Assembly: GCF_029892565.1 (NCBI RefSeq)
Contig: NZ_JARXVH010000006.1
Span: 186,001-250,000 of the forward strand
Length of the DNA: 64,000 bases
Source: Streptomyces pseudovenezuelae
GTDB lineage: Bacteria > Actinomycetota > Actinomycetes > Streptomycetales > Streptomycetaceae
Direction: 5' to 3'
The notes under the pieces: generated by a model
What the model saw: the letters and a program-made list of their open reading frames with translations, nothing else
Told to the model about the DNA's origin: nothing
Databases searched by the model: none
Shown: positions 40,176 to 60,460 of the stretch, in pieces
How positions within the stretch are numbered: position 1 is the first letter of the stretch
Layout: every line of letters starts with the position of its first letter
Translations under genes and position numbers: made by a program

Positions 40176-41828
40176 GTGACCGAAGAGGCAAGCGCCTCCC
40201 GCACCGTGCGTGAGGCCACGCTCGACGTGCTGCGCGAGCTGGGCCTGACCACCGTCTTCAGCAACCCCAGCCACACCGAGATGAAGCTGTTCGAGTACTG
40301 GCCCGAGGACGAGTTCCGTTTCGTCATGGGCCTCCAGGAGGCCAGCGTCGTCGGCATGGCCGACGGCTACGCCCAGGCCACCGGCGAGCCCTCGCTCGTC
40401 CTCATCAACGGCGGGCCGGGACTGGGCAACGCGATGGGCAGCGTCTACACCGCGGCCTCCGCGCACACCCCGATGGTGATACTCGGCGGGCAACAGGCCC
40501 GCAAGATGCTGCTGGGCGAACCGTTCCTGGTCGCCAAGGACGCCACCCAGCTGCCCAAGCCGTACATCAAGTGGGCCGGTGAGCCGGCCCGGCCGCAGGA
40601 CATCCCGGGGATGATCGCGCAGGCCTACCACATCGCCCGACAGGCTCCGCAGGGACCGGTGTTCGTGGCCGTTCCCGAGGACGACTGGATCCGTCCGGCC
40701 GGCCCGGAGCCGGTGCGGGTCGCCAGCGTGGAGAGCGCCGTCGTGCCCGACCCCGCCGTCCTCGCCAGGATCGCCGAGGCGCTGAACGGCGCCGAGCGGC
40801 CGGGGCTGATCGCCGGCCCGACCGTGGACGCGCAGGGCGCCCGCGGCGCGCTGGTCGCCCTGGCCGAGAAGCTCAACGCGCGGGTGTGGGGCAGCCCCGT
40901 CTGGCCGCGCAGCAGCTTCCCTGAGAACCACCCGCTGTTCGCCGGTGTGCTGCCGCCCATCCCGGAGCTGATCAACGAGCGGCTGGCCGCCCAGCACGAC
41001 GTGGTCGTCGTCCTCGGCGCGCCCGCCTTCACCCTGTTCACCGCCTGGGACCTGTTCTCCACCAACCCGGCCGATCCGGACCAGAGCGCCCGGCCCGCGC
41101 TGCCGGAGTCGGTCCGCTTCCTGCACGTGACCGACAACCCGGAGGCGGCGGCCGCGACCCTGGCCGGACAGAGCTTCGTGGCGCCGCCGGGAGCCGTGGT
41201 GGAGGGCCTGGTGCCGCTGGTGACCCAGCACGAGCGGGTCGCCCTGACGCCGGTGCGCGAACCCGTCCCGGTGCCCGAGGCCTCCGAACCCCTCAGCCAG
41301 GCTTATCTGTTCCACCTGCTCTCCCAGGAACTGCCGGAGGACGCGGTCCTGTTCGAGGAACTGCCCATCGCCCGGGCCGACTTCCACGAGCAGATCCCGC
41401 TGGGCGCCGACAACGGCTACTTCGCCACGGCCAGCGGCGCGCTCGGCTTCCCGTTCGCCGGCGCGGTGGGCTACGCGCTGGCCCGCCCCGACGTCCGTAC
41501 CGTCGTCGTGGTGGGCGAGGGGTCGGCCCAGTACACGCTGCACTCGCTGTGGACGGCCGCGCGGCACAACCTGCCGGTCACCTTCGTCATCCCGGACAAC
41601 GCCGGTTACCTGTCCCTGAAGTACTACCTCCAGGACCAGAAGTCCTGGCAGAAGGGCTACGACCTGAGCGGCGTCGACATGGCCCAGCTCGCCCGCGGCT
41701 TCGGCGTGCGCGGCGAACGCATCGAGAAGCCCGAGGGGCTTCGCGCGGCGCTCAAGGACGCCCTGACCGCCGACGGCCCGGTCCTCCTCGACGTCGTCGT
41801 CGCCGACCCGGGGCTGTTCCGGCTCTGA
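40176..41828 (+). CDS. Thiamine-diphosphate enzyme 1 (benzoylformate-decarboxylase-like)
   Basis: A 550-aa enzyme with the three domains of ThDP decarboxylases/lyases. The cofactor-activating Glu55 lies in GLQEASVVGMADGYA, and the C-terminal diphosphate-binding region begins VVGEGSAQYTLHSLWTAA with Asn-Ala about 30 residues later. The best-fitting family is benzoylformate decarboxylase. It would decarboxylate an aromatic or branched 2-keto acid or join it to an aldehyde. GTG is preceded by AGGAGA. A strong terminator follows. Confidence 0.9.
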   Translation: MTEEASASRTVREATLDVLRELGLTTVFSNPSHTEMKLFEYWPEDEFRFVMGLQEASVVGMADGYAQATGEPSLVLINGGPGLGNAMGSVYTAASAHTPMVILGGQQARKMLLGEPFLVAKDATQLPKPYIKWAGEPARPQDIPGMIAQAYHIARQAPQGPVFVAVPEDDWIRPAGPEPVRVASVESAVVPDPAVLARIAEALNGAERPGLIAGPTVDAQGARGALVALAEKLNARVWGSPVWPRSSFPENHPLFAGVLPPIPELINERLAAQHDVVVVLGAPAFTLFTAWDLFSTNPADPDQSARPALPESVRFLHVTDNPEAAAATLAGQSFVAPPGAVVEGLVPLVTQHERVALTPVREPVPVPEASEPLSQAYLFHLLSQELPEDAVLFEELPIARADFHEQIPLGADNGYFATASGALGFPFAGAVGYALARPDVRTVVVVGEGSAQYTLHSLWTAARHNLPVTFVIPDNAGYLSLKYYLQDQKSWQKGYDLSGVDMAQLARGFGVRGERIEKPEGLRAALKDALTADGPVLLDVVVADPGLFRL

Positions 41829-41853
41829 ACAGGCGCGCCCGTACCGCCACTTG

Positions 41854-41882
41854 GGACGCCCTCCGCCGAGCGGGGGGCGTCC
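41854..41882 (+). terminator. Terminator hairpin after the first ThDP enzyme
   Basis: A 13-bp stem with one G-T pair (GGACGCCCTCCGC / GCGGGGGGCGTCC) and a three-base loop starts 26 bases after the stop codon. It separates the small-enzyme operon from the MFS gene. Confidence 0.7.
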
Positions 41883-41953
41883 TGTCGTAGGGCGGCGGGC
41901 CCGCGCCCGCGGCAGAGACGGAGGCCCCCCTCCCACCCTCAGGAACCCCCACC

Positions 41954-43375
41954 ATGCCCCGCACCCCACAACCGTCGGCCGGCCGCGCCCCGAGACCCGG
42001 AGCGGGCCGCGGCCCCGGACGGCCGGGCGCGGACGCCGCCGACGGCACCGACCGATGTCCCGGCGTCGTCCGCTGGGCGGCGGCGGTGGCCAACGCGGAC
42101 TGGCACGTCACCGCGCCCCTGCTGGTGTCGCTGGCCGCGGCCCTCGGCACCGGGATCGACACGGTGACCGCGGCCGTCGGCGCGTACTCCCTCGGCCACG
42201 GCCTGGCCCTGCCCCTGTGGGGCCGTGTCGCGGACCGCTGCGGACCCCGCCGCATCCTGCGCTGCGGACTGGCCCTGGCCGCCGTCCTGTCGGCCGCCGC
42301 CGCCCTGTGCTCCTCCGGCACCGACTGGCTGGTCCTGCGCACCGCCACGGGGGCGGCGTTCGCCGCCGTGACCCCCGCCGTGGCGCTGTACTGCCACGAG
42401 ACGGCCGGTACCGCCCTGGCCCGTCAGCGCCGCTTCGCCGACATCCTGGCCGTCTCCGCCGTGACCGCGATCGCGGCCCCCCTTTATGCCGACGCCACCG
42501 ACCGTCTGACCACCTGGCGCCTGACCTTCGCCACCCTCGCCCTGGCCTCGGCCGCCCTTGCTCTGCGGGCCCGCACCCTCCCCGCCCCGCCGGTCCCGGT
42601 CCGGCCCACCCCCGGCGCACCCGCGGATGGCACCGCGCCTGCGGACAACACCGCGCCCCCCGCCGACGCCCGCGCAGTTCGCCGCACCCTCGCCGTCATC
42701 CTCCTCATCGGCACCGTCGAAGGCGCCGTGCTGCTCGGGACGCCCGCCCTGCTGGCGCCCGCGCTCGCCGCCCGGGGCGATCCGGGAGGCACCGAGGTGG
42801 CCGTCGCCTACGGGGCGAGCGTGCTCGTCGGGAGCGTGCTGGTACGGCGCTGGCTGGGGCGCCGGTCGCCCGCGCTGCTGGTCGCGGCCGGCGGCACCAT
42901 CGGTGTCCTCGCGACCCTCGGCGCGGCCGTGCGGCAGACGCCCACGGCGCTCACCGGGTGCGCCGTGCTGCTCGGTCTGTCCTGGACGCTCACCCAGACC
43001 ACGCTGCAGACCTGGCTGCCCCGGCTGCTGCCGACCAGCCGACGGGCCACCGCCGCCTCGCTGTTCGCGACGGCGGGTGTGCTGGCCGGCGGAGTGGCCG
43101 TGACCGTCGTGGCCCCCGAGTTGCAGGCGGGCCGGGCGCCCGCGGTCTTCCTGGCCGCGGCCGTGCTGTGCGCCGTCATGACGTGCTCGGTGGCGCCGGC
43201 CGCCCGCCGGTGGACAACAGGCCTCGTCGTCCAGCGATTTGCCGTAGTGCCGCCTGCCACTTCCCGATGTGCGGCGCCGACCCCTGCCCTGCCTGGTAGG
43301 GACCGACCACCAAAAACTAGACATGAGTTCGGCAGTTCGCGTGTCCGAACCGCCCGCCGAACGAGAGGAACCCCC
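41954..43375 (+). CDS. MFS transporter (frame continues without stop into the DJ-1 gene)
   Basis: A membrane transporter with a Pro/Arg-rich N-terminus followed by about twelve hydrophobic segments (for example WHVTAPLLVSLAAALGTGI, GHGLALPLWGRVADRCGPRR with the loop 2-3 motif, VFLAAAVLCAVMTC near residue 405). It resembles drug-efflux MFS proteins and would export the pathway product. The homology ends around residue 416, but no stop codon occurs in this frame; the next 56 codons run straight into the downstream DJ-1 start at 43376. In the +1 frame there is a TAG at 43297. The end given here is therefore the end of MFS-side sequence, not a seen stop. Confidence 0.75.
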
Positions 43376-44212
43376 ATGAGCAGGCGCATCCTCGTCATCC
43401 TGTCCGAGTACGGCTACTGGGGCGAGGAACTCATCGGCCCCCTGGAGACCTTCGACAAGGCCGGCTACCACGTCACCTTCGCCACACCGACCGGCAAGAA
43501 GCCCCTGGCCCTGCCGCCGAGCATGGACCCCGACTACATCGACCCGCCGCTCGGGCGGTCCGTCACCACCCCCGAGATGGCCGCCAAGGTCAAGGCGGTC
43601 GAGGCGTCCGACCGCCTCGACAACCCCCTCGACCTCTCCTCCTGGCTCCCGGAGAAGCCCTACCGCGCCAAGCCGTACTTCCTGCGCGACTGGGAGGGCT
43701 ACCACACCCGGCTGGAGAGGATCCGCGAGCAGATCGCCGACCGCTACGACGCCATGCTCATCGTCGGCGGCAGCGGACCGATCGTCGACCTCGCCAACAA
43801 CTGGCGCGTGCACGACCTGATCCTCGCCTTCTACGAGCTCGACCGGCCGATCGCCGCCGAGTGCTACGGCGTGACCTGCCTGGCCTTCGCCCGCGACGAG
43901 GGCGACCGCAAGAGCATCATCCGCGGCAAGCACGTCACCGGCCACTGCATCGAGTACGACTACCTGGACGGCACCGGGTTCGTCGGCGTCCCCGACTTCA
44001 ACATGGGCCCGCCGGCCTATCCGCTGGAGTACATCCTGAGCGACGCCACCGCTCCCGACGGCGCCTACCACGGCAACTTCGGCAAGGTCACCTCCGTGAT
44101 CGTGGACTACCCGTTCATCACCGGGCGCTCCACCCCCGACTCCTACCTCACCGGCCAGAAGACCGTCGAGGTGCTCGAAGAGGGTCTGCGCCAGTGGGGG
44201 TTCCACGCCTGA
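43376..44212 (+). CDS. DJ-1/PfpI-family protein 1 (Hsp31 / glyoxalase III-like)
   Basis: A 278-aa protein with the DJ-1 fold, starting RRILVILSEYGYWGEELIGPLETF and carrying the nucleophile elbow AAECYGVTCLAFA with Cys163. GERIREQIADRYDAMLIVGGSGP precedes it, and the long insertion resembles Hsp31/glyoxalase III-type members. ATG has GAGAGGAA 6 bases upstream, so independent initiation is expected even though the frame is open to the MFS gene. Members remove methylglyoxal-type adducts, hydrolyse glyoxals or act as isonitrile hydratases. Confidence 0.87.
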   Translation: MSRRILVILSEYGYWGEELIGPLETFDKAGYHVTFATPTGKKPLALPPSMDPDYIDPPLGRSVTTPEMAAKVKAVEASDRLDNPLDLSSWLPEKPYRAKPYFLRDWEGYHTRLERIREQIADRYDAMLIVGGSGPIVDLANNWRVHDLILAFYELDRPIAAECYGVTCLAFARDEGDRKSIIRGKHVTGHCIEYDYLDGTGFVGVPDFNMGPPAYPLEYILSDATAPDGAYHGNFGKVTSVIVDYPFITGRSTPDSYLTGQKTVEVLEEGLRQWGFHA

Positions 44213-44270
44213 GCCCGCGGCCGCTCCCGAGCACGGGCGGTCCCGCTACCGGACGAGAGGTGGACAGACC

Positions 44271-45950
44271 ATGGACAGCAGGCCGGCCCGGGCCGCGTTC
44301 CTGGAGCAACTGACGGCGGACGGGGTGCCGTACATGTTCGGCAACCCCGGCACCGTGGAGCAGGGTTTCCTGGACGAACTCCGGCACTTCCCCGACCTCG
44401 AGTACATCCTCACCCTGCACGAGACCGTGGCCGTGGGCATGGCCGACGGCCACGCCCGGGCCACCCGCCGGCCGACCGTCGTCCAGCTCCACTCCGGAGT
44501 GGGCCTCGGCAACGGCATCGGCATGCTGTACCAGGCCATGCGGGGCCACGCCCCGCTGGTCGTCGTGGTCGGCGAGGCGGGCCTGCGCTACGAGGCCATG
44601 GAGGCGCAGATGGCCGCGGACCTGGTCGGCATGGCCAGGCCCGTGACCAAGTGGGCGACCCGCGTGGTCGACCCGGACTCCACGCTGCGGGTGCTGCGGC
44701 GGGCCTTCAAGGTCGCCGGCACCCCGCCGTACGGCCCGGTCCTGGTGGTCCTGCCCGCCGATGTGATGGACCGGCACACCAGCGAGGAAGCGGTGCCGGT
44801 GGTGTATCCCGACACCGCTTCCGCACCACGTCCCGAACAGATCGCCCACGCCGCCGTGCTGCTGTCCGGCGCCCGGCGCCCGATCGTCGTCGCCGGGGAC
44901 GGGGTCCACTTCGCCGGGGCCCAGCAGGAGCTGGCCCGGCTGGCCGAGGTGTGGGGCGCGGAGGTGTGGGGCGCGGACTGGGCAGAGGTGAACCTGTCCG
45001 TGGAACACCCTGCGTATGCCGGCCAGCTGGGTCACATGTTCGGCGAGAGCAGCCGCCGGGTCACGGGCGCCGCGGACGCCGTCCTGCTGTGCGGGACGTA
45101 CGCGCTGCCCGAGGTCTTCCCGGCCCTGGACGGGGTGTTCGGCAAGGGGGTGCCGGTCGTCCACATCGACCTCGACACCGATGCCATCGCCAAGAACCAC
45201 CCCGTCGACCTCGGTCTGGCGGCCGACCCCAAGCGCACCCTGGCGCTGCTCGCCGGCGCCCTCGACGAGCGGATGAGCGACGAGGAGCGCGAGGCGGCGG
45301 CCGAACGGCTTCGCCTGGGAGCCGCCGAACGCGCCCGGGACCGGGCGGAGGCGGCGGAGCACGTCCGCGAGAACGCCGCCGCGCAGGACCTGCCGCACCT
45401 CGCCTTCGCCGAGGAGCTCGCGGCCCGACTGCCCGAGGACGCCGTGCTGTTCGACGAGTCGCTGACCGCCGGGCCCGCGCTCTTCGGTCCGTTGCGGGCG
45501 GCCGTGCCCGGTCACTGGCACCAGACCCGCGGCGGTTCCCTCGGGGTCGGCATCCCGGGTGCGCTGGGCGCCCAACTGGCCCATCCCGAACGGACGGTGG
45601 TCGGGTTCACCGGCGACGGCGGCAGCATGTACACCTTCCAGGCGCTGTGGACGGCGGCCCGGCACGGCATCGGCGCGAAGCTCGTGATCTGCAACAACAG
45701 CAGCTACAAGCTGCTGGAGGACAACATCGAGCAGTACTGGCGGGAGCAGGACATCCCCGCCCACGCGCAGCCGGAGATCTTCGACCTCTCCCGGCCCGCC
45801 ATCGACTTCAGCGCGCTGTCGAGGTCGCTGGGCGTGCCCGCGGTGCGGGTGGAGAAGCCGAGCCAGGTCCAGGGGGCGGTGGCCGAGGCGCTGGCGCACC
45901 CCGGCCCGTTCCTGATCGATCTGGTCACCGGACGCGGGAAGGGGCAGTAG
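44271..45950 (+). CDS. Thiamine-diphosphate enzyme 2
   Basis: A 559-aa ThDP enzyme, distinct from the one at 40176. The activating Glu51 sits in LHETVAVGMADGHARAT, and the diphosphate-binding segment is GFTGDGGSMYTFQALWTAARHGIGAKLVICNN (landmark at about 445-476). The family is the acetolactate-synthase/benzoylformate-decarboxylase group; the linker DERMSDEEREAAAERLR is not diagnostic. It overlaps in function with the first ThDP enzyme and is followed after two bases by a second DJ-1 protein. Confidence 0.9.
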   Translation: MDSRPARAAFLEQLTADGVPYMFGNPGTVEQGFLDELRHFPDLEYILTLHETVAVGMADGHARATRRPTVVQLHSGVGLGNGIGMLYQAMRGHAPLVVVVGEAGLRYEAMEAQMAADLVGMARPVTKWATRVVDPDSTLRVLRRAFKVAGTPPYGPVLVVLPADVMDRHTSEEAVPVVYPDTASAPRPEQIAHAAVLLSGARRPIVVAGDGVHFAGAQQELARLAEVWGAEVWGADWAEVNLSVEHPAYAGQLGHMFGESSRRVTGAADAVLLCGTYALPEVFPALDGVFGKGVPVVHIDLDTDAIAKNHPVDLGLAADPKRTLALLAGALDERMSDEEREAAAERLRLGAAERARDRAEAAEHVRENAAAQDLPHLAFAEELAARLPEDAVLFDESLTAGPALFGPLRAAVPGHWHQTRGGSLGVGIPGALGAQLAHPERTVVGFTGDGGSMYTFQALWTAARHGIGAKLVICNNSSYKLLEDNIEQYWREQDIPAHAQPEIFDLSRPAIDFSALSRSLGVPAVRVEKPSQVQGAVAEALAHPGPFLIDLVTGRGKGQ

Positions 45951-45952
45951 CC

Positions 45953-46594
45953 GTGCGCTTGTCGGGGCACAAGATCGCCGTACTGATGGAGAGCGACTTC
46001 TACGAGCCCGAGATCCTCTACTACCAGCGCCGGTTCCCCGAGGAGGGCGCGGAGGTCCACTTCCTGACCCGGCTGTGGGGCGCGGACCGGATCACCTTCC
46101 AGGGGCACGAGCACCGGATGCCGTTCACGGTCTCCGAATCGTTCGAGGACATCGACGAGTTCGCCCTGCGGGACTTCAGCGCCGTCATCGTGCCCTCCGG
46201 CATCGTGGCCGACCGGCTCCGCTACACCGAGGACCCCAAGCAACTGCCGCCCGCCTCGCAGTTCCTGCGCCGGGCGTTCGCCGACCCGGTCATCATCAAG
46301 GGGATCATCTGCCACGGCATGTGGCTGGCCGCCCCGGTGCCCGGACTGGTCCGCGGCCGGCGCGCGGTGGTCCACAACAACCTGCTCGGCGACCTGCGCA
46401 ACATGGACGGCGTCTACGTCGACCAGGACGTGGTCGTCGACGACGACCTGGTCACCGCGCGCACCGGCGAGCACTGCCACCTGTTCGCCCGCACGATCAT
46501 CGAGCTGCTCGCCAGCCATCCGCGGGGGCTGCCGGCCACGTCCTGGTCGACGCCGCGGCTGACCGGGCAGCCTCCCGCGGCGGCGCTCCCGTGA
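45953..46594 (+). CDS. DJ-1/PfpI-family protein 2
   Basis: A 213-aa DJ-1 fold protein with an N-terminal Glu (AVLMESDFYEPEI), the nucleophile elbow GIICHGMWLAA containing Cys120, and the closing VDQDVVVDDDLVTAR strand. It belongs to the PfpI/YhbO-like branch. GTG starts 2 bases after the ThDP stop, so the two are translationally linked. The repeated pairing of a DJ-1 protein with a ThDP enzyme suggests handling of a reactive 2-oxoaldehyde or similar. Confidence 0.87.
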   Translation: MRLSGHKIAVLMESDFYEPEILYYQRRFPEEGAEVHFLTRLWGADRITFQGHEHRMPFTVSESFEDIDEFALRDFSAVIVPSGIVADRLRYTEDPKQLPPASQFLRRAFADPVIIKGIICHGMWLAAPVPGLVRGRRAVVHNNLLGDLRNMDGVYVDQDVVVDDDLVTARTGEHCHLFARTIIELLASHPRGLPATSWSTPRLTGQPPAAALP

Positions 46595-47000: not shown

Positions 47001-48356
47001 TCAGCGCCGGCTCTCCTGGGTCAGGGCCTGCGCAGGGTCGTAGGTCATGGGCATCCCCGAGGCCTGCAGCGCGTGGTCGTAGGCGTCCAGCGCCTCCTTC
47101 GAGCGGCCCTGGCGCTTCCATACGTCACCGATGTGACGCCATTCCTGGGCCGTCTCGTACGACGCGGTGAAGTGCCGCAGCTGACGCGTCGCCGCGTGCA
47201 GCGCCTGCAGGCCCTGGTCGGCGTCACCGCGCAGCAGATGTATCTCGGCGAGCCGGACGCGTGCCCCGACCGCCTCGACCCGGGGACCCGAGCTCATCAG
47301 ACCGAGCGCGCGCCGGGCGTGGTCGGCCGCCTCGTCCCAGCGCCCGAGCTGCATGTTGGCGTCCACCAGGCAGATCTCGCACCGGCCCTGCTCGACGGCG
47401 GTGCCGAACTGCGCGAGGGTCTCGCCGGCGTCCTCCAGCAGTTCCCTGGCCCGCGCGGGGTCGGGGTTGCCGGACTGGAGCTCCAGCCAGGCGACGTTGA
47501 CCTTGAGCATCGCCACATGGCGCAGGTTGTCGTCGTCGGCCATCATCGCCAGCGCCCGCTCGGTGAGCGCCAGCGCCTCGGGCAGCTGCCGGCGGGAGAC
47601 GGCGACCAGTCCGGCGTTCCAGTACACGGCGCCCCGGCCGGTCCGGCCGCCGTGCTCCTCCGCCACCGGGATCAGCTTCTGGGCGAGCAGATGCGCCCGG
47701 GTGATGTCGCCGCGCATCAGGTAGGACGCGATGAGGGTCGAGCCGACCTGGATGTGGTCCACCGTGACGTCGAGTCCGAGAGAGTCCAGTGTGGCGAGCG
47801 CCCGTTCGCAGATCTCGATGCTGAGGGTGACGTCGCCCATCGTGCGGTAGCAGCGGCCGAGAGCGACCGAGACGCGGCACCACTCGTCCGAACCGGCCGC
47901 GAGGGACGGGTCCTTGACGAGGTCTTCCAGTACGGGGATGGCGGCCTCGACCCGGTCCAGCTTCTCCAGCGCGGTCGCCTGCCCGATGCGGGCACGCAAC
48001 CGCATCGACAGGTCGAGGAGTGCGCCCTTCGACAGGAGTTCGCCGAACGCCTGGAGAGCTTCCCCGTTGTCGCCGTTGCGCAGGGCCATTTCGGCGAAAG
48101 AGAGCCTCAGTCTTGCGTCTTCGGTGGCGTGGTCGTCGCGGCCGGTCCGGAGATGCTCCGGCGAGCAGCCGAGTTTCCGGGCCAATGTGGTGAGCACGGC
48201 ATCCGAGGGAGCCCTTTTGCCTGATTCGATGAGCGAGATGTAGCTCGCGGAAATATCCGTGGAGGCCAGATCCTGCTGCTTCAGACCGAGCTTGGCTCGT
48301 AGGTCTCGGATGCGCCTGCCCACCTGGACCGGAGATACACCTTCCACATGATCCAT
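47001..48356 (-). CDS. XRE-type HTH regulator with tetratricopeptide (TPR) domain, RRNPP-like
   Basis: The 451-aa protein has an N-terminal XRE helix-turn-helix (about residues 8-62; LKQQDLASTDISASYISLIESGKRAP is the landmark) and then about 380 residues of helical repeats recognisable as TPRs (ELLSKGALLDLSMRLRARIGQATALEKL, ALGRCYRTMGDVTLSIEICERAL, VWKRQGRSKEALDAYDHAL). HTH plus TPR array is the architecture of RRNPP peptide receptors (Rgg, NprR, PlcR, PrgX). ATG 48356 was chosen over the longer frame because GGGAAG lies 5 bases ahead. It is transcribed away from a 47-aa secreted-peptide gene and next to an oligopeptide permease. Confidence 0.87.
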   Translation of the reverse strand: MDHVEGVSPVQVGRRIRDLRAKLGLKQQDLASTDISASYISLIESGKRAPSDAVLTTLARKLGCSPEHLRTGRDDHATEDARLRLSFAEMALRNGDNGEALQAFGELLSKGALLDLSMRLRARIGQATALEKLDRVEAAIPVLEDLVKDPSLAAGSDEWCRVSVALGRCYRTMGDVTLSIEICERALATLDSLGLDVTVDHIQVGSTLIASYLMRGDITRAHLLAQKLIPVAEEHGGRTGRGAVYWNAGLVAVSRRQLPEALALTERALAMMADDDNLRHVAMLKVNVAWLELQSGNPDPARARELLEDAGETLAQFGTAVEQGRCEICLVDANMQLGRWDEAADHARRALGLMSSGPRVEAVGARVRLAEIHLLRGDADQGLQALHAATRQLRHFTASYETAQEWRHIGDVWKRQGRSKEALDAYDHALQASGMPMTYDPAQALTQESRR

Positions 48357-48617
48357 TTGGCTTCCCAGGGTGAGCACATGACTTGAGATGTCATAGATCA
48401 CAATACCAGCATGACTGGGGCACGCCAATGGGTGTGGCGGCCCAACTCCCGCTGATGGCCCGAAATGCGGTGTTCCAGGGGCTGATCTTTAGCGCGCGCA
48501 CAGGAAAGGGAAATTCCGTTTCCGCTGATCTGATTTTTGTAAAAGCGCTCTTGACTTGATCTGTAATTAGCGATTGACTGAGGTTGTAAAGCAAAGAATG
48601 CGGGAGAGGAGAGAAAA
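48357..48617. promoter_or_regulatory. Divergent promoter region between TPR regulator and peptide gene
   Basis: A 261-base, unusually AT-rich stretch. On the regulator side, ATGAC (48378-48382) and GTCAT (48390-48394) form an inverted repeat with a seven-base spacer, and another ATGAC occurs at 48411. On the peptide side two TTGACT hexamers (48551-48556 and 48574-48579) and repeated TTGTAAA(A)GC stretches (around 48536 and 48584) look like -35 elements or operator repeats. No convincing -10 was placed. Confidence 0.5.
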
Positions 48618-48761
48618 GTGATTCCGAAACACGTCATATTGCTTGTGGCAATGCTGCTGGTTGCCGGCCTCGCCGCCTCCGGTCTCTATGTCACGGCAGG
48701 TGGGCCGTCGAAGGAACCGGTCAAGCAGTCCATGCAGAACGGTCCGAACGGCTGCTGCTGA
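48618..48761 (+). CDS. Small secreted peptide (47 aa), candidate signalling pre-peptide
   Basis: The gene starts at GTG with GAGGAG six bases upstream. The 47-residue product has a short basic start (VIPKH), one hydrophobic segment of about 20 residues (ILLVAMLLVAGLAASGLYV) and a soluble tail of about 20 residues ending NGPNGCC. This is the layout of pheromone pre-peptides that are exported by Sec and trimmed. It lies 261 bases from the divergent XRE-TPR regulator and 60 bases from the end of the permease operon. Too short for routine gene callers. An alternative is a small membrane protein. Confidence 0.72.
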   Translation: MIPKHVILLVAMLLVAGLAASGLYVTAGGPSKEPVKQSMQNGPNGCC

Positions 48762-48821: not shown

Positions 48822-50936
48822 TCACGTGAGCGGGAAATGGCAGACGACCGAACGGCCGAGGTCGACGGGTGCCTGTACCGCTCCTGGGAATTCCCTTTCA
48901 CAGCGCGATCGTTGACCGGGCTCCAATGACTCGAACACCGGGCAACGTGGCCTGAACCGACATCCCCGCCCATCGTCACCACCTGATGGTGGGTCACCGC
49001 GCAGCACCATCGAGGAACGCGAGCGCGCCACCGCGGGATCCGGTACCGGAACCGCGTCCAGCAAGGCTTTGGTGTACGGATGGCAGGGCCGTCCGAACAC
49101 TTCGTCCACCGTGCCGGTCTCGACGACGCGACCGGCGTACATCACCGCGACCCGGTCGGCGATCTGCCGGACCATTGCCAGGTCGTGGGAGACGAACAAG
49201 CACGAAGGGCCAGGATCCTCCTTCAGCCGGCGCAGCAGATCGAGGATCCCGGCCCGCACCGACACGTCCAGCGCCGACACCGGCTCGTCGAGCAGCAGCA
49301 GTCGCGGCTCCACGGCCAACGCGCGGGCGATGGCGATGCGTTGCCGCTGACCACCGGAGTACCGGTGCGGCAGGGCGGCCGCGTCGTCCGGGCTCAGCCC
49401 GACCAGTCGCAGCACCTCGGACACCCGGGCGGCGACCCGTTCCGCCGGAGCCCGCTGCACCAGCAACGGCTCGGCGACGATGTCACCCACCGTCATCCGC
49501 GGATCCAGGCTCGCCATCGGATCCTGGAACACGATCTGCAGCGCGCCCCGCAACCGCCGCTCGGCGGCCCGGGAGAGCGTGCCGGTGTCCTGCCCGAGCA
49601 CCTCGATGGTGCCGTGCCGCGGCGCCCTGAGGGCGATCACCTCCAGCAGCGTGGTGGACTTCCCGCAGCCGGACTCGCCCACCAGCCCGAGCGTCTCGCC
49701 CCGGCCCACCTCCAGGTCGACCCCCTCCAGCGCCCACACCTCGCGCCCGCCCCGCCGCCACCGCCCCGAACCGCCGCTCGCCGGGAACGACTTGGCAAGC
49801 CCCCTGATCCGCAACACCGGCTCCACCACGCCCCGCACACCCGCCGCCCGCCGCGGCACCGACGGCGGAAACAAGGTCGCGGCCCCGATCCGCACGGCCT
49901 CCTCACCACGCCGACAGGCGACAAGATGCGGCTCACCGCCGCCCGCCTGTCCCTCGCCCCCCGCCGACCGCTCCTGGTCACCGACCAGTTCCGGCACCCG
50001 TGTCCGGCACTCCGGTTCGGCGAGCGGGCAGCGTGGGGCGAAGGCGCAGCCGGTGTCCGGGGTTCCCGCCACCGGCGGAGCGCCCGGCATCGGGGTCGGC
50101 GGGGTGTCGCGGTCGAGTCGCGGCACGGAGCCGATCAGCCCCGCGGTGTACGGCATCCGGGGCCGGGCGAACAGCTCCCGGGTGCCGCCGTACTCCACGA
50201 TCCGCCCGCCGTACATCACCGCCACCCGGTCCGCGGCACCGGCCAGCACCCCCAGGTCGTGGCTGATCAGCAGCAGCGCGGCGCCGGTCTCGCGGCGCGC
50301 GGTGACCAGCGCCTGGAGCACCTGCGCCTGGACGGTGACGTCCAGGGCGCTGGTGGGCTCGTCGGCCACGATGACGTCCGGGCGGTTCGCCATCGCCATC
50401 GCGATCATCGCCCGCTGGCGGGTGCCGCCGGACAGCTGGTGCGGATAGGCGCCGGCGACCCGGCCGGGCTCCGGCACCCCGACCGCGTCCAGCAGCTCGG
50501 CCGCCGCGCGGCGGGCCGACTCCCGTCCGGGGCGCGGGCGTTGGTGGATGCGCAGCGCCTCGCCTATCTGGTCGCCTATCCGCTGCACCGGGGTGAAGGC
50601 GGCCAGCGCGTCCTGGAAGACCATGGCGATGTGCCGGCCGCGCAGCCGGGCCAGGTCACGCACCGGCAGCCCGACCAGCTCGCGGTCCAACAGCCGTACC
50701 GACCCGGCCACTTCGAGCCCCGGCGGGCACAACCCCAGCAGGGCCAGGGCGGTGAGGGTCTTGCCCGCCCCCGACTCGCCCGCAAGGCCCAGCACCTCGC
50801 CCCGGCGCAGCCGCAGATCGACGCCCCGCACCAGGGGCAGGGCGGGGGAGCGCCGGGAGGAGGGCCGTCCGACCCGCAGCCCGCGCGCCTCCAGCAGTAC
50901 CTCCCGCGAGGGTGTCCCGGCACCCGGTGCCGTCAT
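48822..50936 (-). CDS. Oligopeptide ABC transporter ATPase, fused OppD-OppF
   Basis: A 704-aa protein containing two complete ABC domains. The first has Walker A GESGAGKT, signature LSGGTRQR and Walker B VIVADEP; the second has GESGCGKST, YSGGQRQR and LLLLDEP. Each is followed by an oligopeptide-type C-terminal extension with Cys clusters (CAFAPRCPLAEPEC and CRFRPRCPVFE) that bind an iron-sulfur cluster in characterised relatives. OppD and OppF are usually separate genes. The start overlaps the OppC stop. It powers import of peptides through OppBC. Confidence 0.93.
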   Translation of the reverse strand: MTAPGAGTPSREVLLEARGLRVGRPSSRRSPALPLVRGVDLRLRRGEVLGLAGESGAGKTLTALALLGLCPPGLEVAGSVRLLDRELVGLPVRDLARLRGRHIAMVFQDALAAFTPVQRIGDQIGEALRIHQRPRPGRESARRAAAELLDAVGVPEPGRVAGAYPHQLSGGTRQRAMIAMAMANRPDVIVADEPTSALDVTVQAQVLQALVTARRETGAALLLISHDLGVLAGAADRVAVMYGGRIVEYGGTRELFARPRMPYTAGLIGSVPRLDRDTPPTPMPGAPPVAGTPDTGCAFAPRCPLAEPECRTRVPELVGDQERSAGGEGQAGGGEPHLVACRRGEEAVRIGAATLFPPSVPRRAAGVRGVVEPVLRIRGLAKSFPASGGSGRWRRGGREVWALEGVDLEVGRGETLGLVGESGCGKSTTLLEVIALRAPRHGTIEVLGQDTGTLSRAAERRLRGALQIVFQDPMASLDPRMTVGDIVAEPLLVQRAPAERVAARVSEVLRLVGLSPDDAAALPHRYSGGQRQRIAIARALAVEPRLLLLDEPVSALDVSVRAGILDLLRRLKEDPGPSCLFVSHDLAMVRQIADRVAVMYAGRVVETGTVDEVFGRPCHPYTKALLDAVPVPDPAVARSRSSMVLRGDPPSGGDDGRGCRFRPRCPVFESLEPGQRSRCEREFPGAVQAPVDLGRSVVCHFPLT

Positions 50937-51832
50937 ACCCGGCCCACCGCCGGACCGTTCTCCACGGGCACCGCACCGGCCGCACCGGCCGCCCCCACCG
51001 GGTCGAACGCGTCCCGCAGCCCCTCGCCGACCAGATGACAGGCGAGGACCAGCAGCACCAGCAGCCCGACCGGGAAGTAGAACATCCACGGATACGTCGT
51101 CGGCACGTCCGAGGAGTCGGCGATCAGCGTGCCCAGCGAGACGTCCGGGGGCTGCACGCCGAAACCGACGTACGACAGTCCCGTCTCGCTGATCACCGCG
51201 CCCGCCACCGCGACCGTGGCATCGGTGGTGAGGAAGGAGACCAGGTGCGGCAGGATGTGGCGGCGCACCACCGCGATCGGCCCGAGCCCCATGTACCGTG
51301 CGGCCACCACGAACTGACGCTCCTTCAGCGACCGGGTCATGGCGCGCACAGCGCGGGCGGTGATCATCCAGCCGAACGCCGCGAGCAGCCCGCCGTAGCC
51401 GATCCAGCCCACCTCGCGCAGCCGGGGCGCGGCGACCACCAGGACCAGGAACGCCGGCACCACCAGCATCAGGTCGACCAGGAACATCAGCAGCCGGTCC
51501 GGCCAGCCGCCCAGATAACCGGCGCACACGCCGACGACCGTCCCGCCCGCCGTCGAGACGACGGCCACCAGGAACCCGATGAGCAGCGACTTCTGCAACC
51601 CTCGAAGGCACTGGGCGAAGACGTCCTGGCCGATCCGGTTGGTGCCGAACCAGTGTTCCGACCCGGGCGGCACGCGCAGCGCCGTGTAGTCGACGGCGGT
51701 GTACGACCAGCCGGCCAGCGCGGGGCCGGCGAAGGCCAGCACGAGCAGCGCGCACAGCAGCGCGGTGCCGGTGACCGCCGAGGGCGAGCGGACCAGCCGA
51801 CGCAGCGTCCGTCCGCGTCTCGGGTAGCTCAT
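50933..51832 (-). CDS. Oligopeptide ABC transporter permease OppC-like
   Basis: A 299-aa inner-membrane permease: an N-terminal helix (GTALLCALLVLAFAGPAL), an extracellular segment with HWFGTNRIGQDVFAQ (family signature) and five further helices with the EAA loop around AARYMGLGPIAVVRRHILPH. It starts at an ATG that overlaps OppB and ends over the ATPase start, so the three genes form one translational unit. Confidence 0.92.
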   Translation of the reverse strand: MSYPRRGRTLRRLVRSPSAVTGTALLCALLVLAFAGPALAGWSYTAVDYTALRVPPGSEHWFGTNRIGQDVFAQCLRGLQKSLLIGFLVAVVSTAGGTVVGVCAGYLGGWPDRLLMFLVDLMLVVPAFLVLVVAAPRLREVGWIGYGGLLAAFGWMITARAVRAMTRSLKERQFVVAARYMGLGPIAVVRRHILPHLVSFLTTDATVAVAGAVISETGLSYVGFGVQPPDVSLGTLIADSSDVPTTYPWMFYFPVGLLVLLVLACHLVGEGLRDAFDPVGAAGAAGAVPVENGPAVGRV

Positions 51833-52812
51833 GCGAACCGGACTCTGGGGTCGAGGGCGGCGTGCAGCAGGTCCGCGCACAGGCCGGCCAGCAGGACGAG
51901 CGCGGCGCCGAACACCTCGATCGCGACGACGGCGTTGACATCGCCCTTCTGGACCGAGTCGAGGAACCAACTCCCCATGCCGTGCCAGCCGTAGATCTTC
52001 TCCGTGAACACCGCGCCGGTGAACATCGTCACGAACCCGAAGGCGAACACGGAGGTCAGGGGGATCAGCGAGGTGCGCAGACCGTGCCGGAGCAGGGCGC
52101 GTCCCGGCGTGAGTCCCTTGGCCTGGGCGGTCCGCAGATGTTCCGCGGCGAGCACGTCGAGGGTCGCCCCGCGCTGATAGCGGCTGTAGAGGGCGACGGC
52201 GCCCAGGGCGACGGACAGCGTGGGCAGCACCAAATGGGCGGCCGTGTCACGGAGTTGGATCAGGGCGCCGCCGTGGAGACCGGGGGTCCGCTCGCCGGTG
52301 TAGCGGATCACGCTGCGGCCCGAGGCGTCGTTGACCGCGATCGCGCCGGTCTGCAACAGCAGCCCGAGCACGAAGGGCGGCACCGACAGCACCGTGAACG
52401 ACAGCAGCGTCAGCCCCCGGTCCGGCAGCCGGCCGCGTCGCACGGCCGCCCACACCCCGGCGACCACTCCCAGCGCCGTACCCGTCACCGTGCCCACCAG
52501 CAACAACCGCGCGGTCACCCCGACCCGGCGGCCGAACTCGGCGGACACCGATGTTCCGTCGAGCGTGCGGCCCAGGTCTCCGTGCAGGGCACGCCACGAC
52601 CAGTGCCCGAACCGCTCGACGACCGGCGTGCGCCGGTCGAGTCCGAGCTCGGCCAGCCGCTGGTCGACCACCCGCCCGGGCGGCGGCGGTGTCCGCTCCT
52701 CGTAGTACGCGCGAGGGTCAAGAGCGGCCGAGGAAAGCAAATAGCAAAGGAAAGTTGACGTGATGAGTAATAGACAGTAGTTCGCCAGACGTTTTGACAG
52801 CATCGCGCACAA
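51829..52812 (-). CDS. Oligopeptide ABC transporter permease OppB-like
   Basis: A 327-aa permease. The first hydrophobic helix follows KRLANYC, then a periplasmic loop with LGLDRRTPVVERFGHW and the EAA-type motif HLRTAQAKGLTPGRALLRHGLR. A TTG at 52812 with GGGGGA upstream is used as start; ATG 52803 is possible but poorly spaced. A TTA leucine codon lies near residue 15, so translation of the whole OppBCDF unit may depend on bldA tRNA. Confidence 0.9.
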   Translation of the reverse strand: MCAMLSKRLANYCLLLITSTFLCYLLSSAALDPRAYYEERTPPPPGRVVDQRLAELGLDRRTPVVERFGHWSWRALHGDLGRTLDGTSVSAEFGRRVGVTARLLLVGTVTGTALGVVAGVWAAVRRGRLPDRGLTLLSFTVLSVPPFVLGLLLQTGAIAVNDASGRSVIRYTGERTPGLHGGALIQLRDTAAHLVLPTLSVALGAVALYSRYQRGATLDVLAAEHLRTAQAKGLTPGRALLRHGLRTSLIPLTSVFAFGFVTMFTGAVFTEKIYGWHGMGSWFLDSVQKGDVNAVVAIEVFGAALVLLAGLCADLLHAALDPRVRFA

Positions 52813-52891: not shown

Positions 52892-54610
52892 ATGACTAGA
52901 TACCCGGAACGACGCAGATTCTTATGGGCCGCGCCGGTGTGGATCGCGCTCGTCGCGCTGCTGGCCGGTTGTACGTCGTCCGGCGGATCGAACAGAGGTG
53001 ACGACCGGGAATCGGGCGGCGTTCTTCCCGCGTACGACCACGCGGACGTCAACGCCCGACCCCGCAGCGAACTCCGTGAAGGCGGCACCCTCACCCTCTC
53101 CATCGTCCAGTGGCTCACCCAGTTCAACTACTTCCAGTTGGACGGCGCCCTCGACGACACACTCACCGTGGTGGGACTCTTCGAGCCACGGCTGTTCACC
53201 CGCGACTCGAAGGGCGTGCCGCATCCGGACCCCGACTATCTGCGCTCCGCGAAGGTGACCTCGACCTCTCCCCAGACGGTCACCTACCGGCTCAACCCCG
53301 AGGCCCGCTGGTCCGACGGCACGGCCCTGGGCTGGCAGGACTTCGCCGCCCAGTGGCACGCCCTCGGCCGCGGCGACCAGCGCTACCAGATCGCCGACCC
53401 GAGCGGATACGAGGACATCGCGTCGGTCACCGAGGGCGCCGACGCGCACGAGGTGAAGGTCACCTTCAAGACGCCGTTCGCCGACTGGCAGCGCCTGTTC
53501 ACCCCGCTGTATCCCGCCGCCGCGTTCAGCACCCCCGAGGAGTTCAACGAGGGCTGGCGGTCCGGACTGCCCATCACCGCGGGCCCGTTCAGGATCGGCT
53601 CGCTGGACACCACCGGCAAGACCCTGACCGCCGTACGCGATCCGAAATGGTGGGGCACCCGGCCGCTCCTGGACCAGGTCGTCTTCCGCACCCTCGACCC
53701 CACGACCGCCGTCCAGGCCTACCTCAACGGCGAGATCAGCGCCGTCAACGCGGCCTCCGGGGACGTGTACGACCGGCTCAAGGGCGCCTCCGACACCGAC
53801 ATCCGCACCGGCTCCGCCTGGGACGAGGTACTGGTCGCCTTCAACGGCGCGAACGGCCCGCTCGCCGATGTCCAGGTGCGCCGCGCCGTGCTGCGGGCCG
53901 TCGACCGGAATGCCCTGGCACAGGTCGCCGGTGAGGGGCTGCCGATCGGAGTGCCGTTGCTCGGCAATCACTTCTTCATGACCAACCAGCCCGGCTACAC
54001 AGACAATTCGGGGACTCTTGGCCGCTACGACGTGAAGGAGGCCGAGCGAATTCTCGATGCGCGGGGCTGGCGCCGGAAGAACGGAAGCGGAACACGCGTC
54101 AAGGACGGGCAGGAGTTGAGGCTGCGTTTCGTGCTCAGCCAGTCGACCAACCGCCTCGGTCTCGACCTCTCCCAGCTGATCCAGCAAATGCTGGCCCGGG
54201 TCGGCATCGCCGTGGAGATCCAGAAGGTGCCCGCCGACGACTACTTGTCGAAGTACCTCAACCGCGGGAATTTCGACATGGCGATCTTCCGATTCATCGG
54301 CCAGACCTATCCCAGCTCGCTGTACTCGATCTACCGGCAGCCGACCGACGGCCAGGCCTATGAGAACTACGGCAGGATTTCCAGTCCCGACATCGACGCC
54401 CTGCTGCGGGAGGCGGTGCACACCCTGGACACCGCGCGCCGCGCCCGCCTCTACCGCCAGGCCGACACCGAGATCTGGGAGGCGGCCCACGACCTCCTGC
54501 TCTACCAGCGCCCCCAGATGCTCGCCGTCCGCGAGGACCTCGCCAACTACGGCGTGCCCGGCCTGGGCGACATCGACTTCACCCAGGTCGGCTGGGAGAA
54601 AACGGGGTAG
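52892..54610 (+). CDS. Oligopeptide-binding lipoprotein OppA-like
   Basis: A 572-aa extracytoplasmic binding protein. The N-terminus is a lipoprotein signal with lipobox LLAGC and acylated Cys27. The mature part follows the family-5 peptide/nickel binding pattern (EGGTLTLSIVQWLTQFNYF, VTYRLNPEARWSDGTALGWQDF and ITAGPFRI). A TTA leucine codon is residue 11, inside the signal peptide. It is divergent to oppBCDF. In peptide quorum sensing the OppA protein captures the pheromone outside the cell; here it probably captures the 47-aa precursor's processed tail. Confidence 0.92.
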   Translation: MTRYPERRRFLWAAPVWIALVALLAGCTSSGGSNRGDDRESGGVLPAYDHADVNARPRSELREGGTLTLSIVQWLTQFNYFQLDGALDDTLTVVGLFEPRLFTRDSKGVPHPDPDYLRSAKVTSTSPQTVTYRLNPEARWSDGTALGWQDFAAQWHALGRGDQRYQIADPSGYEDIASVTEGADAHEVKVTFKTPFADWQRLFTPLYPAAAFSTPEEFNEGWRSGLPITAGPFRIGSLDTTGKTLTAVRDPKWWGTRPLLDQVVFRTLDPTTAVQAYLNGEISAVNAASGDVYDRLKGASDTDIRTGSAWDEVLVAFNGANGPLADVQVRRAVLRAVDRNALAQVAGEGLPIGVPLLGNHFFMTNQPGYTDNSGTLGRYDVKEAERILDARGWRRKNGSGTRVKDGQELRLRFVLSQSTNRLGLDLSQLIQQMLARVGIAVEIQKVPADDYLSKYLNRGNFDMAIFRFIGQTYPSSLYSIYRQPTDGQAYENYGRISSPDIDALLREAVHTLDTARRARLYRQADTEIWEAAHDLLLYQRPQMLAVREDLANYGVPGLGDIDFTQVGWEKTG

Positions 54611-54695: not shown

Positions 54696-55937
54696 CTATC
54701 CGGCCGAGCCCGGCGGGATCGTCCGGGGCCGGCGCAGCGTGTCGTAGCCCAGCGCGACCGAGGCCAGCGTGACGTGGTGGTGCCAGCCCCGGAACGAGCG
54801 GCCCTCGAAGTCGCCGAGGCCGAAGTCCTGTTGGAGCCGCGCCAGGCTGTTGCCGCACAGCGCCCGCAGCTGCGCGAGCGGCAGCACGTCGGCGATCCTG
54901 CGCGCGGGCAGGTTCGTCAGCCAGTAGGTGCGCGGGGCGGGCCTGCCGTAGGGCCAGTCGGCGACCAGGTGCCGGGGGCGCTGCGGCGGGCGTTCGGGCA
55001 GCGGGCGCCCGGCCGCCGTACCGAGCCGCGCCTCCGCGAGCAGCAGCGCGGGCATCGACAGCACCTGGGACTGCCGCATCCGGGAGGTCACCCGGTCCTG
55101 CCAGGCGATCGGCATCCGCTGGCGGTGCTGGACGGCATGCCGGGCCAGCTCCGACAGAGTGCCGCGGCCGGGCGCCGAACCGGCGCACGGCCGCGGCAGT
55201 GTGACCGCCACGGTGGGCGCGACCTCCACCAGATAGGCGAGACCGCGTGCTTCGAGACCGTGCAGCAACGGCGTCACATCGCCGTCGCAGCGCCAGTCCA
55301 CCAGGACCGGCAGCGGCTCCAGGTACCACTCCTCGAGCATCTCGTCGATCGCTTCCAACACATACCGCCAACGCGGCTTGGCGCGCTCGTCCGGCGGTAC
55401 GTGCGCCTGTGTGCGCAGCGCCTCGTCCCGGTCCCAGCGCTGCGGCAGCAGCAACTGCCAGCTCACCGGCACCCCGCCGTACCGTCCGGCCAGCGAAGTG
55501 GACAGCGCCAGCTGGCAGTTGACGGTCCGCTCCAGCGAGGGCGCGTACTGCCGGGCCACGCCCACCGAACGGTCGCCGTTCTTGGCGAAGACGACCTCGT
55601 CGAAGCACCAGGCCTCCGCCTGCAGTGCCCGACTGATCCGGTGGGCGAGCCGTTCACGCACCGGCCGGCACGGCCACGGGCTCTGGTTGACGAACTGCTG
55701 GATCTGCTGGACCGCACGACGACCCAGCACCTCTTCGGTGATCCGGGCCGGCGTCTTGCGCCCGGGCACGTCGAGCAGGCCCTGGACGTACACCTCGCCC
55801 CAGCGGCGCTGGTCGGAGCGGGACAGCGCGCCGAAGAGGTCCTGGCAGTAGGCGGAGAAGTCCACCGGCTCGGGCGGCGGAGCGGTCTCCGCCGGCCGGT
55901 CCATGACGTACCTGGGGGGGAGCAGGGTCGTGGTCAT
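54696..55937 (-). CDS. IS701-family transposase-like protein, probably domesticated
   Basis: A 413-aa DDE protein. The IS701-family landmark NGDRSVGVARQY and its preceding Asp (CFDE), a second Asp in VLVDWRCDGD and the Glu in DFEGRSFRGWHHHVTL are all present, so the catalytic triad seems intact. The start codon lies six bases after the stop of the AGE-STAS gene with GAGGAGGA overlapping that stop, which leaves no room for an insertion-sequence end. It thus looks like part of a glgX-AGE operon rather than a recent insertion. No terminal inverted repeats were recognised. Confidence 0.82.
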   Translation of the reverse strand: MTTTLLPPRYVMDRPAETAPPPEPVDFSAYCQDLFGALSRSDQRRWGEVYVQGLLDVPGRKTPARITEEVLGRRAVQQIQQFVNQSPWPCRPVRERLAHRISRALQAEAWCFDEVVFAKNGDRSVGVARQYAPSLERTVNCQLALSTSLAGRYGGVPVSWQLLLPQRWDRDEALRTQAHVPPDERAKPRWRYVLEAIDEMLEEWYLEPLPVLVDWRCDGDVTPLLHGLEARGLAYLVEVAPTVAVTLPRPCAGSAPGRGTLSELARHAVQHRQRMPIAWQDRVTSRMRQSQVLSMPALLLAEARLGTAAGRPLPERPPQRPRHLVADWPYGRPAPRTYWLTNLPARRIADVLPLAQLRALCGNSLARLQQDFGLGDFEGRSFRGWHHHVTLASVALGYDTLRRPRTIPPGSAG

Positions 55938-58093: not shown

Positions 58094-60229
<2,136 letters not shown>

Positions 60230-60460
60230 AGAGCTTCACCTCTTGTCACCTGAGTAGTCGAGCGTCAGTCAGGTCCCTTGTGAATCCGTCTGACGGTGGT
60301 TCCGTGACATGGCTGGCTGCACCCAAGCCAGTCAACAAGCCTTGTAAGGTTGAGTCAAGTGGCTTGTAAAACTGGATGCGTACCCGCACAACTCGACAGG
60401 CGCAGGGCGGGGGAAGGGGGGCGGTGCTCCCAGGGGCGCCGACGGCGCCGGGAACGACAA

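Follow-up and report, generated by a model that had tools for sequence, protein, structure and literature searches.

A Cys-Cys-ended short peptide gene beside a divergent HTH-TPR regulator in Streptomyces: a candidate peptide-receptor circuit tied to glycogen metabolism

We propose that the product of a 47-codon open reading frame (ORF) in Streptomyces pseudovenezuelae is the pro-peptide in a peptide-receptor circuit working in the manner of the RRNPP systems of Bacillota, tied here to glycogen metabolism and with a signal that ends in Cys-Cys (-CC); we put the probability of this reading at about 0.6. The ORF lies in a 64,000-nucleotide stretch, the window, of an 11.3 Mb genome (Table 1). At the level of sequence, the proposal is carried by the gene itself, the selection acting on it, its pairing with a regulator gene, the recurrent -CC ending, the operator-like sites and the genes behind those sites.

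Table 1. Features of the window that bear on the proposed circuit (positions in the window).
Feature	Position	Strand	Basis or remark
47-aa pro-peptide	48618..48761	+	N-basic hydrophobic segment, tail GGPSKEPVKQSMQNGPNGCC, Cys-Cys terminus
Ribosome-binding site GAGGAG	48606..48611	+	read from sequence; 6 nt before the GTG of the peptide gene
Tandem operator-like sites, TTGACTTGATCTGTAAT (1 mismatch) and TTGACTGAGGTTGTAAA (0 mismatches)	48551..48590	+	upstream of peptide gene
Weaker palindromic motif copy ATGACTTGAGATGTCAT, 2 mismatches	48378..48394	+	just upstream of regulator start
451-aa XRE/HTH and TPR regulator, putative cytoplasmic receptor	47001..48356	-	Pfam, alignments, model
Oligopeptide ABC transporter ATPase, fused OppD-OppF cassettes	48822..50921	-	Pfam ABC_tran x2, oligo_HPY x2; start codon approximate
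OppC-type permease	50933..51832	-	BPD_transp_1 and OppC_N; conserved position
OppB-type permease	51829..52812	-	BPD_transp_1; conserved position
Family-5 peptide/solute-binding protein	52892..54610	+	SBP_bac_5; conserved position
glgX, glycogen debranching enzyme, putative target	58094..60229	-	NCBIfam TIGR02100 above cut-off
Second tandem TTGACT site, 23-bp spacing	60330..60358	-	glgX match starts 130 bp from site start

The ORF translates as VIPKHVILLVAMLLVAGLAASGLYVTAGGPSKEPVKQSMQNGPNGCC followed by a stop, running from a GTG start to the codons TGC TGC TGA. An earlier note, made from the letters of the window, had held it to be a real gene, and we concur: besides the GTG and the GAGGAG upstream of it, there are relatives at the same place and signs of purifying selection. 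Across eight groups of close relatives the pooled pN/pS of the peptide is 0.41; the tightest group, with six members, stands at 0.05 and two pairs at 0.06 and 1.00. Given this ratio and the conservation at related loci, it is very probable that the ORF is a gene selected at the protein level. A hydrophobic stretch follows K4/H5, the tail ends NGPNGCC, and cleavage at a predicted [AV]xA site (VTA) would free GGPSKEPVKQSMQNGPNGCC. Only two of the 469 ORFs of 25-110 aa in the window end in CC, and this is the only hydrophobic one. The peptide gave sub-cut-off matches only in Pfam and NCBIfam and none in PHROGs; of the further peptides compared with these libraries, six had no Pfam match, five no NCBIfam match and two no PHROGs match. 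Streptomyces sp. Mg1 has a distant relative on its plasmid pSMg1-1 that does carry an annotation, under the label hypothetical protein (WP_008741297.1). A genus search with the peptide as query gave matches in 33 of 295 genomes at E<=0.1, and reached the place beside the regulator in four (G016, G274, G182, G067); the remaining matches were mostly short membrane-like stretches inside long frames. Relatives were therefore collected by regulator searches.

The regulator gene is divergent from the peptide gene, 261 bp away. Searching the genus with the regulator gave 13 of 295 genomes at E<=1e-60. Beyond the window's own, the seven best relatives (52-79% identity) each have a divergent short -CC ORF, and five at about 35% identity have none at the divergent place. 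A scan of named genomes yielded 35 regulator loci, 30 of them with a divergent hydrophobic -CC ORF at the same place as in the window. Profile searches carried the regulator further: in the order, 22 of the 293 genomes searched had a match at E<=1e-60, and in the class 50 of 296 did at E<=1e-40. Among the first 29 class-level loci scanned, 26 have a divergent -CC ORF; of the three without, two are on contigs that stop within about 310 bp. The full set comprises 108 distinct regulators with 29-86% identity to that of the window, and 79 of them have a hydrophobic -CC ORF within 1 kb, mostly divergent, at times downstream or co-directional. The other 29 (two of them on the contigs ending within about 310 bp) lack a neighbouring -CC ORF, and whole regulator subclades are without one. 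On the regulator tree the -CC label falls on 80 of 109 rows and covers the whole tree, with at least 16 changes against a shuffled mean of 25.8; the window's own clade has it in 25 of 26 rows. The counts in control ORFs are these: elsewhere in the 35 loci 3 of 3717 end in CC, none of them hydrophobic; in the named loci, none of the 3223 short ORFs lying over 1 kb away from the start of the regulator is a hydrophobic -CC ORF; and none of the 648 short ORFs in 26 unrelated loci of 3 kb ends in CC. Ten loci (eight places) around other HTH/TPR matches in the same genome likewise held no hydrophobic -CC ORF.

The set of 108 is what remains of 111 regulator loci after removal of three identical sequences. 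Loci of repeat genomes were left out (L001, L006, L008-L012, L048, L050-L054, L090-L093, L095, L097, L100, L102, L113, L114, L173-L192), as were L007 and L049, from a genome otherwise absent from the set that carries a -CC ORF (G067), and the plasmid/phage rows L150 (partial) and L151; the same-genome HTH/TPR matches L002-L005 and L193-L198 were kept out and used as the separate control. At L159 one of two upstream -CC ORFs may be a chance frame, with a 12-residue score of 1.83, just above the limit of 1.8.

Several arrangements depart from the simple divergent pair. In L129, L130, L132 and L136 one regulator stands between two unlike -CC peptides, one divergent and one convergent downstream (ending, for example, SPGDFCC and DGGSDFCC), possibly two signals for one receptor. 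In L110 (G378) a -CC ORF ending DTDFPPCC closely precedes the regulator in the same orientation, operon-like. Tandem regulator copies occur in G503 (L114 with L103) and G418 (L113 with L104), with a -CC peptide at one copy per pair. A scan of viral contigs showed no relative, and a phage or prophage version was dropped as a candidate, the one partial match among phage records, in an unverified faecal contig, being without a -CC ORF in the part examined.

The region between the two genes carries the motif TTGACT-N5-TGTMAA, with direct copies starting at 48551 and 48574, 23 bp apart. Allowing up to two mismatches, we counted 98 hits on both strands (so that palindromic sites count twice) in 35 stretches of 420 bp beside regulators, against 0 in 507 kb elsewhere; as the motif was derived from the regulator-adjacent regions, the near count is not independent, and the far count and the joint absence are. 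All 30 peptide-bearing named loci have at least one copy and 26 have a same-strand pair (25 at 23 bp, one at 22 bp), with a single passing copy in each of L072-L075. Of the five peptide-less named loci only L071 has one. We regard the TTGACT sites as the putative operator of the regulator. That the ORF is a chance frame or annotation artefact deserves practically no credence: GC-rich DNA is rich in short ORFs, but none of the control -CC ORFs (3/3717 and 0/648) is hydrophobic, the peptide is under purifying selection, and the motif is missing in four of five loci without a peptide.

A second tandem site lies before glgX in the window. We sought the strict half-site pair TTGACT-N17-TTGACT in 21 regulator-bearing genomes and found 29 sites in 18 of them. 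Seventeen are at a regulator (one at a paralogue for which no -CC ORF was found), four lie 72-143 bp before a glgX match, five are found 68 bp ahead of a sugar nucleotidyltransferase-like gene, and three are elsewhere. The nucleotidyltransferase-like gene, named by Pfam NTP_transferase and below every NCBIfam cut-off shown, heads a same-strand row that includes glgX in both of the loci followed (two of the five). Tandem half-sites thus stand before glgX, or before the gene heading the glgX operon where checked, in 9 of the 21 genomes. In the 295 genus genomes the pair occurs in 8 of 8 with a regulator at >=52% identity versus 14 of the 287 others, five of these 287 having a relative with about 35% identity. 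Not one of the sites in those 14 genomes lies near glgX or a regulator. Since the reversed pattern is found, by our count, in 44 of 295 genomes, and in 1 of the 21 regulator-bearing ones, half-site pairs are not rare in themselves; the weight lies in their tie to the regulator and glgX. Streptomyces sporulation is linked to glycogen turnover, and c-di-GMP activates the GlgX of S. venezuelae (PMC9530166). In a separate case (L112 / L233; G394:C26), a paralogue without a -CC ORF retains a tandem TTGACT site before a gene that looks by eye thioesterase-like, hinting at control of a biosynthetic cluster.

Glycogen genes recur at two more distant loci, L081 and L083, in which the peptide gene stands before glycogen synthase (TIGR02149), with glgB and phosphomannomutase (NCBIfam, above cut-off), GlgE (Pfam) and a maltokinase-like protein (below its own cut-off) nearby. 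Loci of this kind raise the thought that the ORF is a Cys-codon leader peptide, an attenuator at whose TGC TGC the ribosome stalls so that a downstream gene is controlled. The Cys codons are indeed the final two, several relatives (for example L058, L073, L081, L083) have a co-directional glycosyltransferase gene downstream, identified by TIGR02149 as glycogen synthase in both scanned, and mycobacteria have Cys-rich leader ORFs. An attenuator has no need for a hydrophobic N-basic leader, however; the ORF is downstream of the regulator for 14 of the 81 distinct peptides; and the next gene is convergent in the window, L055, L061 and L069, where -CC is nonetheless retained. With the window's next gene being the convergent Opp ATPase and no co-directional gene directly downstream, we consider attenuation very improbable.

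The peptides themselves share little. An alignment of eight (the window's and seven relatives) leaves only G22, C46 and C47 invariant, and in 81 distinct peptides, selected for hydrophobicity and the CC end, no further tail position is fixed: the residue before CC is G in 18, F in 11, Y and M in 7 each, W, L and A in 6 each, T in 5 and others in the remainder. Three properties played no part in selection. K/R occurs within 12 residues ahead of the hydrophobic core in 81/81; an [AV]xA site follows the core in 68, leaving 6-17 residues in 45 of these; and 79 lack any further Cys among their final 20 residues. The earlier note had predicted that only the last 7-10 residues would be conserved, and named a conserved helix with a variable tail as the pattern that would speak for a small membrane protein. 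The tail proved constant only in -CC, among the 8 aligned as among the 81, and the helix drifts as well as the tail, so neither picture was found. Its pheromone reading survives in outline (a probably exported short peptide with a constant Cys-Cys, and a TPR regulator and importer nearby), shorn of the conserved 7-10-residue tail. A second group of Streptomyces regulators at about 35-37% identity (L014, L016, L017, L105, L108, L145) has its peptides downstream of the regulator, and these end D-[IVL]-PLCC, a longer conserved end. At the DNA level the last two codons and stop of 85 peptides are TGC TGC TGA (68), TGC TGC TAG (8), TGT TGC TGA (7), TGC TGT TGA (1) and TGT TGC TAG (1); because these codon and stop variants encode the same -CC end, we discarded a DNA-level signal there as unlikely.

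Two adjacent thiols might also mark a secreted metal-binding product, or a modified natural product (RiPP), that is no signal and whose production the regulator controls. Genes that we take, by eye, to be copper-resistance copC/copD lie beside the regulator and -CC peptide at L187 and L188, and others nearby at L173 and L179 are presumably metal transporters, again by eye. The neighbours vary by family, though, and no modifying enzyme was recognised, recurring or otherwise, among those read, part of which were scanned with profile libraries. The recurring elements are the regulator and the peptide, joined by the operator-like motif where the loci are the named Streptomycetaceae ones, and in the window clade a second site stands before the glycogen operon. 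We judge a metal-binding or RiPP product quite improbable, and return to the signalling circuit.

Its candidate receptor has an N-terminal HTH (Pfam HTH_3) and TPRs (TPR_2/TPR_12) above cut-off, in a scan of a longer 475-aa frame. An AlphaFold2 model built from 36 aligned regulators reached a mean pLDDT of 88.6 and a pTM of 0.75. Among the VIA-align matches of the model, APPBP2, a degron reader, scored Z 27.5, the best Rap 25-26, NprR 24.6 and PlcR-PapR7 19.6, the last in an alignment covering HTH and TPR; other TPR proteins (APPBP2, LGN, MalT) fit about equally well and are mixed among the best matches. The predicted fold resembles those of Rap, NprR and PlcR among other TPR proteins, and a fold is no proof of function. 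A PDB profile search found PlcR (E 1.6e-6) via HTH residues 8-63 only. Pfam RNPP_C (PF18768), which to our knowledge spans just part of the RRNPP superfamily, matched nothing in the genome even when E values up to 10 were allowed. In 33 peptide-bearing representatives below 70% identity, R168, G216, W246 and R279 of the TPR part are invariant, N247, R215 and D217 are at 97% and W406 at 94%. The first helix of a TPR pair is the side that usually forms the ligand groove, and the model, with the helices paired by us, places R168, R215, W246, N247, R279 and W406 there; the TPR fold and the groove are in this sense predicted, from the model and family knowledge. Peptide-less regulators retain most of the conserved TPR residues and so may use a distant peptide or another ligand. 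The receptor residue C169 was weighed as a covalent partner of the peptide and rejected: present in 73 of 80 peptide-bearing regulators (absent from 7) and in 26 of 29 peptide-less ones, it is equally common where a -CC ORF is lacking and so has no tie to peptide presence.

A plausible importer adjoins the pair. The window's peptide gene is followed by the convergent Opp ATPase gene, and all 23 named loci of the close clade (L055-L076, L089) have OppDF no more than 4 kb away on the side of the peptide, in some behind a glycosyltransferase gene, with OppC, OppB and the solute-binding protein after it in all 21 loci with enough flank; these counts take in L071, where the peptide is lost and the Opp genes are kept. 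Twelve more distant named loci are without the Opp set, four of them showing 33-35% matches to just the ATPase, so that a different permease would be needed for any import at these loci. Other neighbours were noted in passing. A block at 40206-46594 adjoins the regulator and is found again in many relatives; its genes code for DJ-1/PfpI proteins and for two TPP enzymes, one of them benzoylformate-decarboxylase-like (above the NF005485 cut-off). Within it, at 41954-44212, an MFS transporter and a DJ-1/PfpI protein share one open frame of 752 aa in the window, and the DJ-1/PfpI gene of L055 is a separate frame (DJ-1/PfpI identity from Pfam in both). A protein that by eye is transposase-like (54696-55937) comes after the GlcNAc-2-epimerase-like gene that follows glgX, and a similar one stands behind the same genes in L229 and L230.

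From these elements we infer the following circuit. The 47-aa product would be exported via its N-basic hydrophobic leader, Sec secretion being plausible from the sequence, and trimmed to a short C-terminal peptide ending -Cys-Cys-COOH. This peptide would re-enter by an oligopeptide permease, for which the nearby Opp set is the candidate in the window clade, and sit in the TPR groove of the divergent regulator. Binding would alter the regulator's grip on the operator at the peptide promoter, and the same operator control at the glgX operon in the window clade would couple the signal to glycogen/alpha-glucan turnover. Density dependence, the direction of control and a role for the thiols belong to the same conjectural layer of the scheme as export, processing, import and the binding of peptide and DNA. 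The peptide tails have nothing in common except the dithiol and the C-terminal carboxylate, and the simplest reading is therefore that a conserved receptor groove reads the -CC end and that the variable residues give specificity. The thiols may act free, in a disulfide or with a metal; the earlier note suggested a disulfide, a thiolactone or metal/heme binding.

A different fate for the product seems unlikely to us: an uncut, unshared and unimported small protein tethered in the membrane, whose extracytoplasmic Cys-Cys tail senses redox state or metal and whose dedicated partner or repressor is the regulator. The N-basic hydrophobic segments agree with tethering, the hydrophobic stretch in the window clade could remain in the membrane, and vicinal thiols are suited to redox or metal sensing as a matter of general chemistry. 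Yet 68 of 81 peptides have an [AV]xA site behind the core, with 6-17 residues left in 45; the TPR fold and Opp neighbours suggest a soluble peptide ligand; and an extracellular tail would be without direct access to a cytoplasmic regulator. Keeping to the exported and re-imported peptide, one may go further, although we rate the following extension at somewhat less than even odds. Actinomycetota might share a class-wide peptide-pheromone language in which every word ends in Cys-Cys, with the variable tail as specificity and the terminal dithiol as a common chemical key (read only when reduced in the cell, for example, or as a ring or metal complex), so that density and redox state would be reported together; in the window's clade such a signal would set glycogen turnover.

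The data suggest that peptide signalling exists in Streptomyces and other actinomycetes, bacteria whose signals are regarded as mainly small molecules. The BldK permease has long led to the suspicion that an imported peptide acts in Streptomyces development, and we know of no general family of genetically encoded candidates. Loci of the present type can be searched for by three marks, an HTH-TPR regulator, an N-basic short ORF and a -CC stop, and they yield dozens of pairs open to testing, together with operator-like sites and a metabolic target that is predicted. If the reading is true, it would open peptide-based control of differentiation, and natural-product clusters would come under peptide control where regulators adjoin biosynthetic genes. 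RRNPP_detector was applied to Firmicutes and viruses, with actinomycete signals said to be typically small molecules (PMC10075063), and the main text of a study of RRNPPA evolution concerns Firmicutes, without actinobacteria or Streptomyces (PMC9765709). No such actinomycete system was among the matches listed from the open-licence literature, a scope outside which subscription papers and preprints fall, so that this proves little.

Among known systems, the NsdA-family TPR regulators of Streptomyces (NF053720) are weakly matched by the regulator, at 39.5 bits, below the family cut-off of 75; we know of no peptide partner for NsdA. The SHP and ComS peptides of streptococci (Rgg-SHP, ComR-ComS) are short and adjoin HTH regulators, and ComS has a doubled residue (WW); here the doubled residue is Cys-Cys and stands at the extreme C-terminus, and ComR was found in the PDB profile search via the HTH only. 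PlcR-PapR of the Bacillus cereus group likewise joins HTH and TPR, and the PlcR-PapR7-DNA structure 3u3w aligns to model residues 9-288, with only 18% identity in the structural alignment, an unrelated peptide and a shorter PlcR (280-293 residues). RRNPP/RRNPPA systems as a whole (Rap-Phr, NprR-NprX, PlcR-PapR, Rgg-SHP, AimR-AimP) share with this locus a small N-basic hydrophobic pro-peptide adjacent to an HTH-TPR receptor of 250-500 aa and, by the model, a similar TPR superhelix. RRNPP_detector looks for a peptide of 10-100 aa, a receptor of 250-500 aa, TPRs, adjacency and Sec secretion (PMC10075063). Four of these five are found here (47 aa, 451 aa, TPRs, adjacency), Sec secretion is only plausible, and kinship by RNPP_C did not appear; we say for this reason that the locus works like an RRNPP system and do not call it a proven member. 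It differs from them in belonging to Actinomycetota rather than Bacillota, in its TTGACT operator-like motif, in its glycogen target in the window clade and in peptides alike only in the terminal -CC; the new element is this Cys-Cys, common to otherwise unlike peptides.
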